Source: Gemmatimonas phototrophica
Lineage (GTDB): Bacteria; Gemmatimonadota; Gemmatimonadetes; Gemmatimonadales; Gemmatimonadaceae
Assembly: GCF_000695095.2 (NCBI RefSeq)
Contig: NZ_CP011454.1
Location: 1,364,001-1,428,000, forward strand
Direction: 5' to 3'
DNA length: 64,000 nucleotides
Part shown: one piece after another, positions 10,327 to 62,094 of the stretch
How positions within the stretch are numbered: position 1 is the stretch's first letter
How the letters are laid out: every line of letters starts with the position of its first letter
Position numbers and translations under genes: made by a program
Notes under the pieces: model-generated
Seen by the model: the letters and a program-made list of their open reading frames with translations, nothing else
Told to the model about the DNA's origin: nothing
Database searches by the model: none

Positions 10327-10959
10327 ATGTCCGCTCATCCCTCCGGCCCTCCCGCTCTGCACGACCGGGCGATTCAGGATCTGTTGTTCATTCGTCGCAC
10401 CATGGAAGGGGCGGCGTCGTTCACCGACGTGCCGGGATGGGGCTTGGTGGGCATTGGGGCCACGGCCATCGCGGCGGCTCCCGTGGCGGCCCGCCAGGGA
10501 ACGCCGGAAGGGTGGCTCGCCGTCTGGATCGTCACGGCCATCGTGGCCGGGAGCGTAGGCGGGGTGACCATGTGGCGCAAAATGCGTCGTCGGCTGCCTG
10601 CCCCGGGGCCGCTGCTGCTCAGTGCGCCCGCCCGAAAATTTCTGCTCAGCTTCTGGCCGGCACTCTTCGCGGGTGCCCTCCTGACGCTAGCGCTGGTGGA
10701 TCCGTTTACCCCCGGGATGGCGCCACGGCTCGCCTCGCGGGTGCTGCCGGGGCTGTGGCTCATGATGTACGGTGTCGCCATCACGACCGCCGGCGCCTTC
10801 TCGGTGCGGGCGGTGCCCCTCATGGGCGCCGGCTTCATGGCGCTGGGAGCCATTACCCTCTTCCTGCCGGCCGCCGATGGGGATCTCATGATGGCCCTCG
10901 GGTTCGGCGCCCTGCAGATCGGCTTTGGCGTTCACATTGCCCGGAGTCACGGTGGGTAA
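10327..10959 (+). CDS. Integral membrane protein, unknown function (operon with regulator)
   Basis: A 210-residue protein with a short polar N-terminus (HDRAIQDLLFIRRTMEGAAS) and about five hydrophobic segments. It is encoded directly behind the palindromic operator. ATG 10327 is chosen over 10267 because the latter lies inside the operator. The N-terminal IRRTMEGAASFT segment before the first membrane helix recurs in small membrane proteins that precede winged-helix regulators in other genomes, but no characterised family is recognised. The regulator start overlaps its stop, so translation is probably coupled. Possible role: a membrane partner or target of the regulator. Confidence 0.8.
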   Translation: MSAHPSGPPALHDRAIQDLLFIRRTMEGAASFTDVPGWGLVGIGATAIAAAPVAARQGTPEGWLAVWIVTAIVAGSVGGVTMWRKMRRRLPAPGPLLLSAPARKFLLSFWPALFAGALLTLALVDPFTPGMAPRLASRVLPGLWLMMYGVAITTAGAFSVRAVPLMGAGFMALGAITLFLPAADGDLMMALGFGALQIGFGVHIARSHGG

Positions 10960-11359
10960 GCGCCCCGGCTCAGCGGCCCGGGCCAAGTCGGCCCCCGAAC
11001 TGCCCCCCTCCGGGGACTCAGAGGAGCGCCCGACATTGACGTCCATTGCCGGAGAGGCCACGACCCCGCTCGCTCTGGACCGCCTTATTCACGAGCGCAT
11101 CCGACTGGCCATTGTCAGTGCGTTGGCGGTGCACCCGGCGCTCAGTTTCAACGAGCTCAAGGCGCTCCTGGACACCTCAGACGGCAATGTCTCGGTCCAT
11201 GCGCGCAAGCTCGAAGATGCCGGCTATGTGGCCTGTTCCAAGGGCTTTGACGGGCGGATTCCCCGCACGGAGTATCGTCTGACCCCCGCTGGTCGTCGTG
11301 CCCTCGAACAATATCTCTCTCACATGGAAGCGCTCATCCGGCGCGTAGGAGGACAGTGA
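10952..11359 (+). CDS. Winged-helix transcriptional regulator (PF13601-like)
   Basis: A 135-residue DNA-binding protein. Residues from LDRLIHERIRLAIVSAL onward form a winged helix: recognition-helix region SFNELKALLDTSDGNVSVHARKL, wing DAGYVACSKGFDGRIPRTEYRLT, and a C-terminal helix AGRRALEQYLSHMEAL for dimerisation. This pattern is that of the HTH_34/MarR-like group. GTG 10952 follows GGAG by six bases and overlaps the upstream stop; an in-frame TTG at 10925 is possible. It is the likely ligand of the palindrome at 10270-10290 and so would regulate itself, both membrane genes and uppS. No sensor domain is visible. Confidence 0.9.
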   Translation: MGKRPGSAARAKSAPELPPSGDSEERPTLTSIAGEATTPLALDRLIHERIRLAIVSALAVHPALSFNELKALLDTSDGNVSVHARKLEDAGYVACSKGFDGRIPRTEYRLTPAGRRALEQYLSHMEALIRRVGGQ

Positions 11360-12051
11360 TGGCCAAAGCCAACGTGCCGGGGCACCTCGCGATCATCATG
11401 GACGGGAACGGTCGCTGGGCCAGCCGCCGCGGTCGTCCCCGGTGGATGGGCCATGTGCGAGGGGCGCATACGGCGCGTGAGGTGGTGGCGCACTGTGCCC
11501 GCGTGGGAGTGACCGATCTGACGCTCTATGCCTTTTCCAGCGACAACTGGAAGCGTCCCCGGGAAGAGGTCGGATTCCTCCTCGACCTCTTTACGTCGCA
11601 CCTGGATCGCCAGCTGGCGGCGTTGCTGAGCAACGGCATTCGCCTGTCCATCATTGGCCGCCGTGACCGGTTGCCCCCCGCGCTGGTTGCGGCCATTGCC
11701 GATGCCGAAGCGCGCACGGCGCACGGTACGCGCATGCATTTGCGGGTCGCGATCGACTACTCGAGCCGCACGGCCATTGAAGAGGCGTTTTCGCGCCGGC
11801 AGGAAGGGCAGGTAGATGCACCGCTCGACTCGCTGCTGCCGCAGGTGGACCTGCTTCTGCGCACGGGTGGGGAACGACGCCTGTCCGACTTTCTGCTTTG
11901 GGAGTGCGCCTACGCCGAACTGGCGTTTCTGGATGTGCACTTCCCCGATCTCAGCACCGCCGACCTCGATACCGTTTTTGCCGACTACGCCAAACGCGAA
12001 CGCCGCTTTGGCGACGTGGGCGCGTCGGGGCAGCTGGCGCCGGTGCCCTGA
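11359..12051 (+). CDS. uppS: Isoprenyl transferase (undecaprenyl diphosphate synthase family)
   Basis: A 230-residue cis-prenyltransferase that condenses isopentenyl diphosphate onto an allylic primer to make polyprenyl diphosphate carriers for wall synthesis. Seen: HLAIIMDGNGRWA with the catalytic Asp at residue 15, RGAHTAREVV, LYAFSSDNWKRP, and the C-terminal RTGGERRLSDFLLWE block. Two usual residues differ (SDNW for SENW, SDFLLWE for SNFLLWQ). ATG 11359 overlaps the regulator stop and AGGAGG lies upstream. The normal neighbours (frr, cdsA, dxr) are absent, so this may be a second, regulated copy making a different chain length; that is inference. Confidence 0.92.
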   Translation: MAKANVPGHLAIIMDGNGRWASRRGRPRWMGHVRGAHTAREVVAHCARVGVTDLTLYAFSSDNWKRPREEVGFLLDLFTSHLDRQLAALLSNGIRLSIIGRRDRLPPALVAAIADAEARTAHGTRMHLRVAIDYSSRTAIEEAFSRRQEGQVDAPLDSLLPQVDLLLRTGGERRLSDFLLWECAYAELAFLDVHFPDLSTADLDTVFADYAKRERRFGDVGASGQLAPVP

Positions 12052-25280: not shown

Positions 25281-25300
25281 ACGCGGTCTGTTGGCGTTGT

Positions 25301-25392
25301 GCCGCCGGGCCAGGGTACGGATGGACGAGCCACTTCGGGGCGCTTTGGCGCCCCTGCCAGATGCTCGTCCATCCGCACCCTGGCCCGGCGGC
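25301..25392. terminator. 92-nt nested hairpin after the LVIVD gene
   Basis: Outer arms 25301-25330 and 25363-25392 pair at 29 of 30 positions. Inside the loop, GGGGCGC (25337-25343) pairs with GCGCCCC (25348-25354) around TTTG. No T-run follows, so it is not a standard intrinsic terminator, but its place between a stop codon and the next gene suggests transcription termination or mRNA 3'-end protection. Confidence 0.6.
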
Positions 25393-25444
25393 ACTTCATG
25401 CATCTGATACTTGTCATGGTCGGCCCCCGGCGTTGATTGGAGGC

Positions 25445-58000: not shown

Positions 58001-58795
58001 ATGGTCCATTTACGTTGTATTGCCTTGATGATGCTCCTGGCGCGCGCAACCAATATGGGTGCCCAGAACGCGCAGGAATTGTTCGGCTGCTGGGCAGCTT
58101 CGCGCCCATTGGGGTCGCGGGGCGATGCGACCGGCGTGCCCAGCGAAGCACGCTTTCAAACGCTTCGCCTCAGCGACAGCGCACGGGTGCATCTCCCGCT
58201 GCTGGAGCGTGGTGAGCGGACCATGTGGGAAGCACGCAGCGGGTGGTCTCAGCGCAGCGATTCGCTCTCACTACGTGTCTCCACGGGGCTCGCTGGCTGG
58301 CAGTTGCACCTGCGGCGGATTGACCAGCGCACGTGGCGCGGGACCGCCACGTATCTCACGGATGCCATTGCGCGCGGACGGCCGCCACTTCGCGTGCCCC
58401 TTGAGCTCACACGGGTTGCCTGCGACCCAGCGTGGTTGCTTCCGGTGTCACCCGCACCCCAGCGACGCCTCACCATGCCGCTGTACTTCGACTTTCAGGT
58501 GGAGCGGCCGGTACGGCTCCGCTCCCCGTTGCCGGTTGGCATTCGGAAGTTGGTACCACTCTCCGGCAAGGAGAGAGATACCACCCTGGTGAACGCCACC
58601 GTGGTGCAGTTTGTGGTGGATTCCGCGGGACGGCCGGACATGGGTACGCTGAAAGTGCTGCGCAGTGCGCCACCGAGTAGCGCCGTACTCGAACAGGCAC
58701 TCTCGACGGCAACTCGCGCCATGGAGTTCCGGCCCGCACTGCTGGGCAACCGGCCGGTGGCGCAACTCACGCAATGGCGCATTGAGTGGCGCTGA
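58001..58795 (+). CDS. Secreted protein with TonB C-terminal-like domain
   Basis: A 264-residue protein. The short hydrophobic start (MVHLRCIALMMLLARATNMGAQ) resembles a cleaved signal peptide rather than the TonB anchor plus proline-rich linker. Residues ~195-264 look like a TonB C-terminal/energy-transducer domain: TTLVNATVVQFVVDSAGRPDMGTLKVLRSAPPSSAVLEQALSTATRAMEFRPALLGNRPVAQLTQW. The central part is a beta domain with WQLHLRRIDQRTWRGTATYLTD. Without ExbBD partners or a linker it may not transduce energy. RBS CTGGGG precedes the ATG. The convergent M1 gene is separated from it by the twin repeats. Confidence 0.8.
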   Translation: MVHLRCIALMMLLARATNMGAQNAQELFGCWAASRPLGSRGDATGVPSEARFQTLRLSDSARVHLPLLERGERTMWEARSGWSQRSDSLSLRVSTGLAGWQLHLRRIDQRTWRGTATYLTDAIARGRPPLRVPLELTRVACDPAWLLPVSPAPQRRLTMPLYFDFQVERPVRLRSPLPVGIRKLVPLSGKERDTTLVNATVVQFVVDSAGRPDMGTLKVLRSAPPSSAVLEQALSTATRAMEFRPALLGNRPVAQLTQWRIEWR

Positions 58796-58827
58796 GCACC
58801 GGCAACGCCATGTAGCCGGCTTGATAA

Positions 58828-59040
58828 GAACTGCCTTACCAGGACTGCCCCGATGCGGCGGACAGGGCGTGCAAACGAGGACTGGCTCCGGCATGGGCCA
58901 GCGGCGTACTGCGGCCGCGAGGTTATTCATTCTTTGAATATTGATCTCGCAGAGGTGGAGAGTGCATGTCGTCCGCACCGTCGCAGTCCTCGTCTAAACG
59001 CCCTGTCCGACTAAACGGGCCAGTCCTCGCAATGCAGTTC
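58828..59040. repeat. Inverted-repeat element A (213 bp, MITE-like)
   Basis: First of two elements of identical 213-bp length. The ends are imperfect ~56-bp inverted repeats sharing GAACTGC, GGACTG, CGGACAGGGCGT and ACGAGGACT. The left end diverges slightly (GAACTGCCTTACC instead of GAACTGCATTGCG). The core contains GGCATGGGCCA, TACTGCGGCCGCGAGG and TTCATTCTTTGAATATTG. No transposase gene. No clear target-site duplication. Confidence 0.8.
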
Positions 59041-59084
59041 AGCGGTGTCTGCAACGAGACCGGTGCTAGTGGCCGGCCTCCTTG

Positions 59085-59297
59085 GAACTGCATTGCGAGG
59101 ACTGCCCCGATGCGGCGGACAGGGCGTGCAAACGAGGACTGGCTCCGGCATGGGCCAACGGCGTACTGCGGCCGCGAGGTTGTTCATTCTTTGAATATTG
59201 ATCTCGCGGAGGTGGAGAGTGCACGTCGCCCACACCGGTTCAGTCCTCATCTAAACGCCCTGTCCGACTATACGGGCCAGTCCTCGTCATGCAGTTC
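59085..59297. repeat. Inverted-repeat element B (213 bp, MITE-like)
   Basis: Second copy, offset by exactly 257 bp from copy A and over 90 percent identical in the core. The left end begins GAACTGCATTGCGAGGACTG and the right end is its imperfect complement. Both copies are followed by AGCGGTG. The two together fill the 550-bp gap between convergent genes (58796-59345) and may fold into strong hairpins. Confidence 0.8.
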
Positions 59298-59345
59298 AGC
59301 GGTGCCAGCCGCCACACCAATGCCAGAGGCCTGCCGCCCACAGCT

Positions 59346-61523
59346 TCACGGCTTGATCTGCCCCTTGAACCGCTGGAAGCGACTTTGATCGTTGCGGCGC
59401 GGCCAGGTGTTGTTGGCCAGATCGGTATCCGCGGTTTCTTCCGCCGGGTCCAGCGTAATAGCCGTAACCTTCTTGGACGTCGTGAACGCTTTGGTCACCA
59501 CGCTCGCGTTCACGCGCCAGATCTCGGCGGGAATGCGCACCATCTCGCGGGTGCCATCGTCGTATTCGAACTCCACCACCAGCGGCATCACAAGTCCGCC
59601 AATGTTCTTGAAGTCCACTTCGTACAGGTAGCGCTTACCGGAAAGGGCGGCTTTGTCGGTGGCCGGTAGGCCGGCCATGAACTTGGCCACGCGATCCTGT
59701 TCGGTGGCGCTCGCGTTACCAGCGGCGCCATCCAGACGGAATTCCATCACGGTATCAAGCGCAACATCCACGTTGTCCACGCCATAGAACCAGCCGCGCC
59801 AGAACCAATCGAGGTCCACCGCGCTCACGTCCTCCATGGTGCGGAAGAAGTCGGCCGGTATGGGATGCTTGAACGCCCAGCGCCGCGCGTACTCCTTGAA
59901 GGCGGCGTCGAACAGCTCCGGCCCCATCACGGTCTCACGCAGAATGTTCAGCGCGGTGGCCGCCTTGAGATAGGCGTTGTTCCCCAAGTTCTGCACGCTT
60001 TCGGAGTTGGTCATGATGGGCTCCTGCAGCGTCTTGTCGAGCCGCATGTAATCCACCACGTTGCGCGCCGGGCCACGGCGAGACGGGTACGTGGTGTCCC
60101 ACACTCGCTCCGACAGATATTGCGTGAAGGAGTTGAGCCCTTCATCCATCCATGTCCACTGCCGCTCGTCGCTGTTCACGATCATCGGGAAGAAGTTGTG
60201 CCCGACTTCGTGAATGACCACGCTGATGAGCCCGTACTTGGTGGCATCATCGTAGCTGCCGTCGGCGTTGGGACGCCGAGGATTGAAGCAGATCATGGGA
60301 TATTCCATGCCGGCGCCGTTCCAGTGTACCGATGTTGCCTGCGGATACGGATACGGAATGGTGGTCTTGCTGTACGTCTCCAGAGCGTGCGCCACGGAGC
60401 GGGTGCTGTATTGCCCCCACAGCGGCTCGGCTTCATTGGGGAAATACGACTGGGCAATGACGCGCGTGCCGTTGATGTTCACGCCACGGGCATCCCAGAT
60501 GAACTTGCGGCTGGAGGCAAAGGCAAAGTCGCGCACGTTCTGCGCGGCAAAGGTCCACGTTTTGGTGCCAGTGGGCTTGCCGCTTTCCGCTGCCTTGGCC
60601 TCAGCGGGTGAGACAATGTGCAGAATGCTGTCACTGGCCTTGGCGCGCGCCAACCGGGCTCGCTGCGTGGCCGACAGCACGGCCAGCGGATTCTGCAGTG
60701 TGCCCGTGGCGGCCACAATGTGGTCGGACGGTACCGTGAGGCGAACCGTGTAGTTGCCAAAGGGGAGCGTGAACTCGCCGCCGCCCATGAACTGCTTGTG
60801 CTGCCACCCCGCATCGTCGCCGTACACCGCAAGGCGCGGGAACCACTGCGCAATGGTGTACACGTAGTTGCCATCGCGTGGGAAAAACTCCTGGCCGGAG
60901 CGCGGATTCCCCTGAGCAATGGCGGTGGTGGTGGGCAACACCTTGTAGCTCCAGCCAATGCGCAGCTGTCGCGTGGCCTTGGGCGGCAGGGGCGCGCCAA
61001 GCTCCACGCGCATCATGGTGCCGTTCACCGTGTACGCGAGCTTTGCACCGGTTGCGGTGGTCACGGCCGTGAGACGATAGCCGCCGTAGTACTCGCTGCT
61101 GTCGGCACTCTGGCCGGCGTTGAGGGATATCACACTGCTCGCCCGCGCGCCTGCCCGCACGGCGCCGTTACGAGTCAGGTTCCCAATGGAGTTGGGGGTG
61201 AACAGGTTCTGGTCCAACTGCACCCACAAGAACCGCAATGTGTCCGGCGAATTGTTGTGGTAGGTAATCAGCTCGCGGCCGGTAATGCGCTGGGTCGCGT
61301 CGTCGAGCGTAGCGTCAATGTCATAATCAACGCGCTGCTGCCAGTAGTCGCGTCCCGGCGCTCCCGAGGCCGTACGGATGCCATTGGCCGTAGGGAGGTC
61401 GGGGCCGAGTTGCTTGAACTTCTCGGCGCCTCCCAGTCCACCCACGTTCTGCGCAGAAAGGGCTGGCGCCGTCGTCAACAGGGACGCGGCGAGTGCAATG
61501 GCGAGGGTCGCGGAACGGCGCAT
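59346..61523 (-). CDS. Secreted M1-family metallopeptidase
   Basis: A 725-residue exported aminopeptidase-like zinc enzyme. Signal peptide MRRSATLAIALAASLLTTAPALSAQ. Zinc site HEVGH (438-442) with third ligand E461 in MDEG, 18 residues later as required. GMEYP takes the place of the GxMEN exopeptidase motif. N-terminal beta saddle (QQRVDYDIDATLDDATQRITGRELITYHN) precedes the thermolysin-like domain. The last ~90 residues are a beta domain. ATG 61565 upstream in frame would add 14 residues; 61523 gives a clean signal. It is divergent from a DUF6702 gene, an arrangement also common in Bacteroidota. Confidence 0.93.
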   Translation of the reverse strand: MRRSATLAIALAASLLTTAPALSAQNVGGLGGAEKFKQLGPDLPTANGIRTASGAPGRDYWQQRVDYDIDATLDDATQRITGRELITYHNNSPDTLRFLWVQLDQNLFTPNSIGNLTRNGAVRAGARASSVISLNAGQSADSSEYYGGYRLTAVTTATGAKLAYTVNGTMMRVELGAPLPPKATRQLRIGWSYKVLPTTTAIAQGNPRSGQEFFPRDGNYVYTIAQWFPRLAVYGDDAGWQHKQFMGGGEFTLPFGNYTVRLTVPSDHIVAATGTLQNPLAVLSATQRARLARAKASDSILHIVSPAEAKAAESGKPTGTKTWTFAAQNVRDFAFASSRKFIWDARGVNINGTRVIAQSYFPNEAEPLWGQYSTRSVAHALETYSKTTIPYPYPQATSVHWNGAGMEYPMICFNPRRPNADGSYDDATKYGLISVVIHEVGHNFFPMIVNSDERQWTWMDEGLNSFTQYLSERVWDTTYPSRRGPARNVVDYMRLDKTLQEPIMTNSESVQNLGNNAYLKAATALNILRETVMGPELFDAAFKEYARRWAFKHPIPADFFRTMEDVSAVDLDWFWRGWFYGVDNVDVALDTVMEFRLDGAAGNASATEQDRVAKFMAGLPATDKAALSGKRYLYEVDFKNIGGLVMPLVVEFEYDDGTREMVRIPAEIWRVNASVVTKAFTTSKKVTAITLDPAEETADTDLANNTWPRRNDQSRFQRFKGQIKP

Positions 61524-61590
61524 GGCAGTGGAGACGGTGGACTGGTAATCGAGGCAGGTACGCATGGAAATATGCGCTAGATTGAGCGGT

Positions 61591-62094
61591 ATGCGCCTGC
61601 CCATGCTGCTCCTCGCGTGTGCCCTGACCCTCCCCTCCCAATGGGCGGGGGAACGCGGACACCCGATTCATGTGAGCAGCACCCAGATTGACGTCAGCCG
61701 GGACCGCCGCTCGCTCGAGATGACGGTGCGCGTGTTTACCGACGACCTGGAAGCCGCACTCAAAGCGGCGGGCATGCCGGTATCCGTAGCGCAATCTCCA
61801 GATGTGGCGGTAGACAGTGCCTTGTCCCGCTACATCGGCGCGCGATTGCTGGTGGCCGCCAACGGGGCGGCGCCCCGACGTGGCAGTATTGTTGGGCACG
61901 AGCGAGAAGACGACGCCACGCTGGTGCATCTCGAGCTACCCGTGCCGGCACCCCTTACGTCGGTACAGATAACCCAGCCGGTACTGCTCGAGCTGTTTGA
62001 GGATCAGACCAACCTGCTGCATATGACATCGGGGACCGTGAAGCGCAGCGGGTTGCTGCGCCGTGGTACCGAGCGGGTCACCTTCCAGTTCTAA
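61591..62094 (+). CDS. DUF6702-family exported protein
   Basis: A 167-residue exported protein. Signal MRLPMLLLACALTLPSQWAG is followed by the family start HPIHVSSTQIDVSRDRRSLEMTVRVFTDDLEAALK. A beta-strand series follows (TLVHLELPVPAPLTSVQITQPVLLELFEDQTNLLHMT), ending RGTERVTFQF. The domain is thought to be periplasmic and is commonly encoded next to an M1 peptidase, as here (divergent, starts 67 bp apart). A role as inhibitor, chaperone or substrate-binding partner is possible but not shown. Confidence 0.85.
   Translation: MRLPMLLLACALTLPSQWAGERGHPIHVSSTQIDVSRDRRSLEMTVRVFTDDLEAALKAAGMPVSVAQSPDVAVDSALSRYIGARLLVAANGAAPRRGSIVGHEREDDATLVHLELPVPAPLTSVQITQPVLLELFEDQTNLLHMTSGTVKRSGLLRRGTERVTFQF

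Follow-up and report, generated by a model that had tools for sequence, protein, structure and literature searches.

Architecture of the element pair

The window analysed here, a 64,000-nucleotide stretch of the Gemmatimonas phototrophica chromosome, contains two copies of a 213-bp element in the gap between two convergent genes, the second of which codes for an M1 peptidase (Table 1). The copies are 92% identical and lie 44 bp apart, and the coordinates bear out the preliminary description of the locus as twin elements of identical length between convergent genes. The long imperfect terminal inverted repeats, put at about 56 bp in that description, are likewise confirmed: each copy is bounded by 57-bp arms (81% and 79% complementary in the two copies), with 99 bp between them. 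Every arm carries two CGAGGACTG-type motifs, which run in the same direction within the arm and are inverted between arms. The GC content of the element is 61%, compared to 64% for the window.

Two points of the preliminary description held in part. The size of 213 bp applies to both copies, but the repeated unit is larger, since the true direct-repeat period at this locus is 257 bp, spacer included (58812-59068 and 59069-59325, 88% identical). The core that had been called conserved, TTCATTCTTTGAATATTG, does not differ between the two window copies; in the family as a whole, however, the AT-rich centre in which it is placed ranks among the least conserved parts and is variable in length. The length of the core shifts by single bases from copy to copy, and the core is therefore non-coding; the overlapping open reading frames have no Pfam match. 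A protein-coding element was rejected on these grounds, and the original statement that no protein gene is present stands.

Table 1. Features of the window locus, and locations of other inverted repeats mentioned in the text
Feature	Position	Strand	Remarks
Convergent neighbour	58001..58795	+
Element copy 1	58828..59040	-	213 bp; strand arbitrary, from family core orientation
Copy 1 left arm	58828..58884	.	motifs CCAGGACTG at 58839, CGAGGACTG at 58876
Copy 1 asymmetric core	58885..58983	.	AT-rich centre; conserved blocks; length differs among family copies
Copy 1 right arm	58984..59040	.	CAGTCCTCG motif twice, at 58984 and 59021
Conserved 44-bp spacer of the 257-bp tandem unit	59041..59084	.	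consensus ..GCCAGCC..CACCGGTG..GGCTGGCACCGCTG..
Element copy 2	59085..59297	-	213 bp; 92% identity to copy 1
Copy 2 left arm	59085..59141	.	CGAGGACTG motif twice
Copy 2 asymmetric core	59142..59240	.
Copy 2 right arm	59241..59297	.
Spacer-like stretch, outer flank of copy 2	59298..59336	.	15.5 bits against the array-spacer profile
M1 peptidase (convergent neighbour)	59346..61604	-
GTGCGATGGATATCGA family examples (own genome, G000)	L228:12733-12974; L045:1891-2274; L056:6759-7081; L057:3963-4226
queA-tgt repeat-type groups of congeners	L156-L175		G009/G018/G006; G015/G014/G020/G027/G025; G029/G024/G017; G004/G001; G022

Copies, repeat unit and arrays

A DNA search of the G. phototrophica genome itself (4,716,552 bp, one contig) retrieved about 30 long matches plus fragments, and a profile made from these matches, run on regions fetched from the same genome, brought the family to about 36 copies, fragments included, spread over about 25 loci. 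The family, which had been described from the window pair, is thus not confined to that locus. All of the approximately 25 loci are intergenic, with zero overlap with predicted genes. The unit is composed of the 57-bp inverted arms, an asymmetric core of roughly 99 bp and a 44-bp quasi-palindromic spacer, about 257 bp in all, with four CGAGGACTG-type motifs per copy. The arms are 75-86% complementary in most full copies, their outer boundary being approximate. Across 22 loci, 63 columns are invariant, compared to 7 expected from shuffling, and the element sequence has therefore been under constraint.

Eight of the 25 loci are uninterrupted arrays of two or three members, either units or fragments, and inspection revealed remnants adjoining the element at several further loci; head-to-tail multiplication in place is found at about 8-10 sites. 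The spacer is conserved from array to array, and the array-spacer profile also matches 11 of 50 outer locus edges versus none of 50 control stretches. It follows that the repeated unit exceeds 213 bp and that single copies carry the spacer too, mostly on one side. Identity among units is 92-99% inside arrays and 78% on average between loci, which indicates an old, roughly star-like spread, with the arrays formed or homogenised later. Array members are always most similar to their own neighbours, so that the arrays have expanded locally, not by capture. Copy similarity bears no relation to genomic distance (Mantel p 0.69), and local hopping was rejected on this ground. Slippage or unequal crossing-over could readily act on the direct spacer repeats around the unit. 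In one 61-bp deletion derivative (G000:C1:1113322-1113382, own genome), the outer arm halves are fused and the core is gone.

Distribution outside the genome and the queA-tgt site

The blastn comparison with other Gemmatimonadota that had been suggested at the outset found the family dispersed in its own genome and without a match in 29 congeners; one more distant genome gave a single weak match of 37 bp. A sequence-only covariance model applied to 395 Gemmatimonadota genomes produced weak single matches outside the own genome and no credible relative, the best of these matches being located in sequence that reads as coding. The family was not found in plasmid and phage collections. A 24-mer scan of a genome-contig collection revealed no relative, and the matches of an 18-mer scan, 40 in genomes and 2 in viruses, were all weak and chance-like by profile. 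Among the genomes searched, and as judged by sequence similarity, the family is species-specific.

The M1 peptidase matched the congeners weakly, so that the window locus provided no usable orthologous gap, and the queA-tgt gap, which is occupied by a two-unit array in this genome, therefore served for the comparison of orthologous sites. Family sequence was present in this gap in none of the 26 congeners with a readable queA end, and in 11 of them the queA stop is only 27-80 bp ahead of the aligned part of tgt, too short a distance for the element. Insertion in this lineage is therefore the simplest reading, and an orthologous site lacking the element, one of the marks of a MITE, is thereby available. 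The gap of 14 congeners is occupied by different, unrelated inverted repeats; about five types were distinguished (some by eye), most of them common to a species group (Table 1). The queA-tgt gap is possibly a hotspot for long inverted repeats, a reading biased by the choice of this gap for its resident element.

Position relative to genes and RNA structure

Gap classes, which rest on gene calls from a simple predictor of our own, are distributed 9:12:4 (convergent:codirectional:divergent) for the element, versus 79:310:153 in the background, and the ratio of convergent to divergent gaps differs accordingly (9:4 versus 79:153, p 0.015). Of 11 elements at codirectional sites, 9 are aligned with the genes in their window-strand orientation (p 0.07). 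Such placement would suit a functional RNA hairpin at gene 3' ends, either a bidirectional terminator or an ERIC-like mRNA-stability element, selected on the transcript. Folding of either strand is also strong (-112 and -119 kcal/mol, z -7.3 and -8.9). A stable predicted stem, however, must be expected of any long inverted repeat, and the avoidance of divergent gaps is also seen in REP families (PMC3733652).

The folding and covariation analysis proposed in the preliminary description thus yielded a very stable fold on both strands, but no compensatory change beyond chance: it occurs in 1 of 37 pairs, with a covariation score slightly under the shuffled mean. Nor do the arms coevolve within copies, as the arm match is 78.8% within a copy and 78.4% between copies (p 0.24). 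The arms are therefore conserved as sequence, in the way expected of protein-binding ends, rather than as pairing, and conservation resides in the sequence motifs. The Rfam search returned only miRNA matches, far under the gathering scores. A search for intrinsic terminators (stem plus U-tract) gave one weak site, at chance level, so that the bidirectional terminator put forward earlier finds no convincing stem and U-tract, though the elements avoid divergent gaps. The lack of covariation and the comparison of the arms argue against a structured RNA, which had also been proposed, and we consider a 3'-end hairpin function unlikely.

Distribution along the chromosome

Eleven loci are located inside 265 kb, and a 1.95-Mb sector is devoid of the element (p about 5e-5 each versus random placement, for window sizes picked after viewing the data). 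Together with the high conservation of the repeated motifs, this clustering would be compatible with a DNA site maintained by the host, at which a chromosome-organising or regulatory protein acts on the CGAGGACTG motifs; the constraint on the sequence could reflect such a host function instead of mobility. The family, however, is missing in all congeners searched, and its copies decay through deletion. In addition, 86 repeats have been reported outside and 4 inside a roughly 600-kb ter-proximal strand-biased region of G. phototrophica AP64 (PMC11237797), where the account of these repeats, as far as it goes, is by length class and number, with no family, structure or sequence. The present family probably contributes to that count. 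If low repeat density near ter is general in G. phototrophica, as that account indicates, the element-free sector need not be specific to this family. A host-maintained site is thus very unlikely. Reaction-centre (pufL/M-type) genes are present in the genome; a link to the photosynthesis cluster was rejected, as the puf genes, at 1.585 Mb, are outside the stretch of 0.72-0.98 Mb in which the elements are dense.

Mobility and classification

Several features of MITEs are present in the family: terminal inverted repeats (the 57-bp arms of most full copies), and a short, non-coding, multi-copy and dispersed nature. The A+T-richness that is usual, though not universal, among MITEs is absent at 61% GC. 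The two molecular hallmarks sought on the basis of the preliminary description did not appear. As regards target duplications, no shared k-mer of at least 5 bp exceeded permuted flanks at any fixed boundary of 20 loci, in a test blind to 2-bp duplications; short duplications could have decayed in copies this diverged. As regards a transposase with matching ends, two pattern searches placed all end-like 19-mers (up to 2 mismatches) inside the listed elements or adjoining remnants, with no transposase between such ends. The genome-wide search by transposase family, which covered Y1_Tnp (PF01797) only, gave no match in this genome and was positive in 5 of 14 control genomes. The REP-like assignment offered earlier therefore fails, as there is no Y1 (RAYT) transposase in the genome. 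A REP/REPIN origin was also rejected on the 257-bp unit, as opposed to 20-40 bp, and on inspection of the aligned ends, which lack the GTAG/CGTC tag.

The attC sites of integrons have RYYYAAC ... GTTRRRY ends and stems that vary in sequence. An attC array was rejected because the AAC/GTT flanks of the element misfit this consensus and its stems are conserved in sequence.

Of the three original readings, a mobile, MITE-like element is therefore the best supported, short of proof: the approximately 25 dispersed intergenic loci, the absence from congeners and the empty orthologous site speak for it, and the lack of target duplications and of an end-matched transposase against it. In view of these missing hallmarks and of the missing RAYT, we call the element MITE- or YPAL-like and stop short of classing it among proven MITEs.

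Alternatively, a repeat of satellite type could have spread without transposition, by recombination, for example through excised 257-bp circles integrating at spacer-like sites. This would agree with the head-to-tail arrays, the near-exact unit period, the quasi-palindromic spacer at the joint and the lack of target duplication, but it is highly improbable: every array member has its closest relative next to it, which points to growth in place and not to capture, and inspection of the queA-tgt gap of congeners revealed no obvious spacer-like target.

The explanation that we favor, with a probability of roughly two in three, is that of an old, non-autonomous and non-coding family of inverted-repeat elements, dispersed in trans and later multiplied in place. 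The arms would be, or once have been, bound by a DNA transposase or recombinase that acted in trans and dispersed the element across the genome. This enzyme may since have been lost, or its own element may now be without recognisable ends. With spacers on both sides of the unit, slippage or unequal crossing-over could add or remove 257-bp units, and such gain and loss would give rise to arrays, single copies and deletion remnants. The survivors are mostly at gene 3' ends, plausibly as selection purged insertions into promoters.

Comparison with known repeat families

The closest parallels are found among dispersed intergenic repeats of other bacteria. Like the present element, YPAL/RU-2 of Yersinia is a dispersed intergenic palindrome of comparable size (168 bp) that has no TA termini, is not A+T-rich and is known from filled and empty sites (PMC2229807). 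It differs in its variable target duplications of 3-26 bp and its dyad-symmetry targets, as opposed to the tandem arrays and the lack of visible duplication seen here. ERIC/IRU is similarly a dispersed, hairpin-forming intergenic repeat of about 127 bp (PMC2229807), but it occurs in an unrelated organism, has TA termini and target duplications, and differs in size, composition and the design of its arms. Classical MITEs (Correia/NEMIS, RUP) are short, mostly non-coding and multi-copy, have inverted ends and were probably moved in trans. RUP shares its ends with IS630-Spn1 and targets TA (PMC2229807), whereas the present family is GC-rich, with no matching element and no target duplication. REP/BIME/REPIN sequences also occur intergenically in inverted pairs and avoid divergent gaps (PMC3733652); REPs, however, are 20-40 bp in length, carry GTAG or CGTC tags and are mobilised by RAYTs, as opposed to a 257-bp unit in a genome without a Y1 transposase.

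The family is thus an undescribed member of a fairly ordinary, already known kind of repeat, unusual in its in-place tandem arrays and in the hairpin families that accompany it. For a phylum with few cultured members, the analysis adds a new repeat family whose unit is defined, whose copies are listed and for which an empty orthologous site is known.

Other long inverted-repeat families

The intergenic DNA of this genome hosts several unrelated families of long inverted repeats. A hairpin survey of 1.49 of the 4.72 Mb, partly chosen around known element loci, revealed 69 long inverted repeats; eight multi-copy families account for 58 of them. The present family is the largest of the eight, in part since the sample includes its known loci. 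The eight families avoid promoter-side gaps, and the avoidance is stronger among the other long inverted repeats than in the present family (23 convergent versus 2 divergent gaps, p 1.5e-8).

A view that we hold to be doubtful is that the genus Gemmatimonas possesses a large, fast-turning-over set of unrelated long inverted-repeat families, which settle independently at the same gene 3' ends (about six at queA-tgt genus-wide), implying a shared host demand or generating mechanism; the present family would then be one lineage-specific case. If it proved general that one gap is repeatedly settled by different families, it would become testable whether bacterial gene 3' ends draw in, or depend on, long hairpins.

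Members of a second family have GTGCGATGGATATCGA in common and range from 96 to 384 bp, with arms of up to 116 nt that are as much as 95% complementary within one copy; 11 members were found in the 1.49 Mb. Another family of the same genome has CTGCCACTGCAGTTTTGGACC-type arms composed of repeats of about 20 nt (L053:10613-10863 and 10864-11380), and repeats resembling it fill the queA-tgt gap in the congeners G004 (L174) and G001 (L167). The window itself contains a further 32-nt inverted repeat, 97% matched around a 32-nt loop (25298-25393), which has no relative in the hairpin survey. Among the congeners, long inverted repeats occur at 4 per 100 kb in a 400-kb sample of G029 (16 in all), compared to 6 in 400 kb of G021, and the G029 sample (L184-L203) includes hairpins of CGCAGAG and CGCGAAG repeats.
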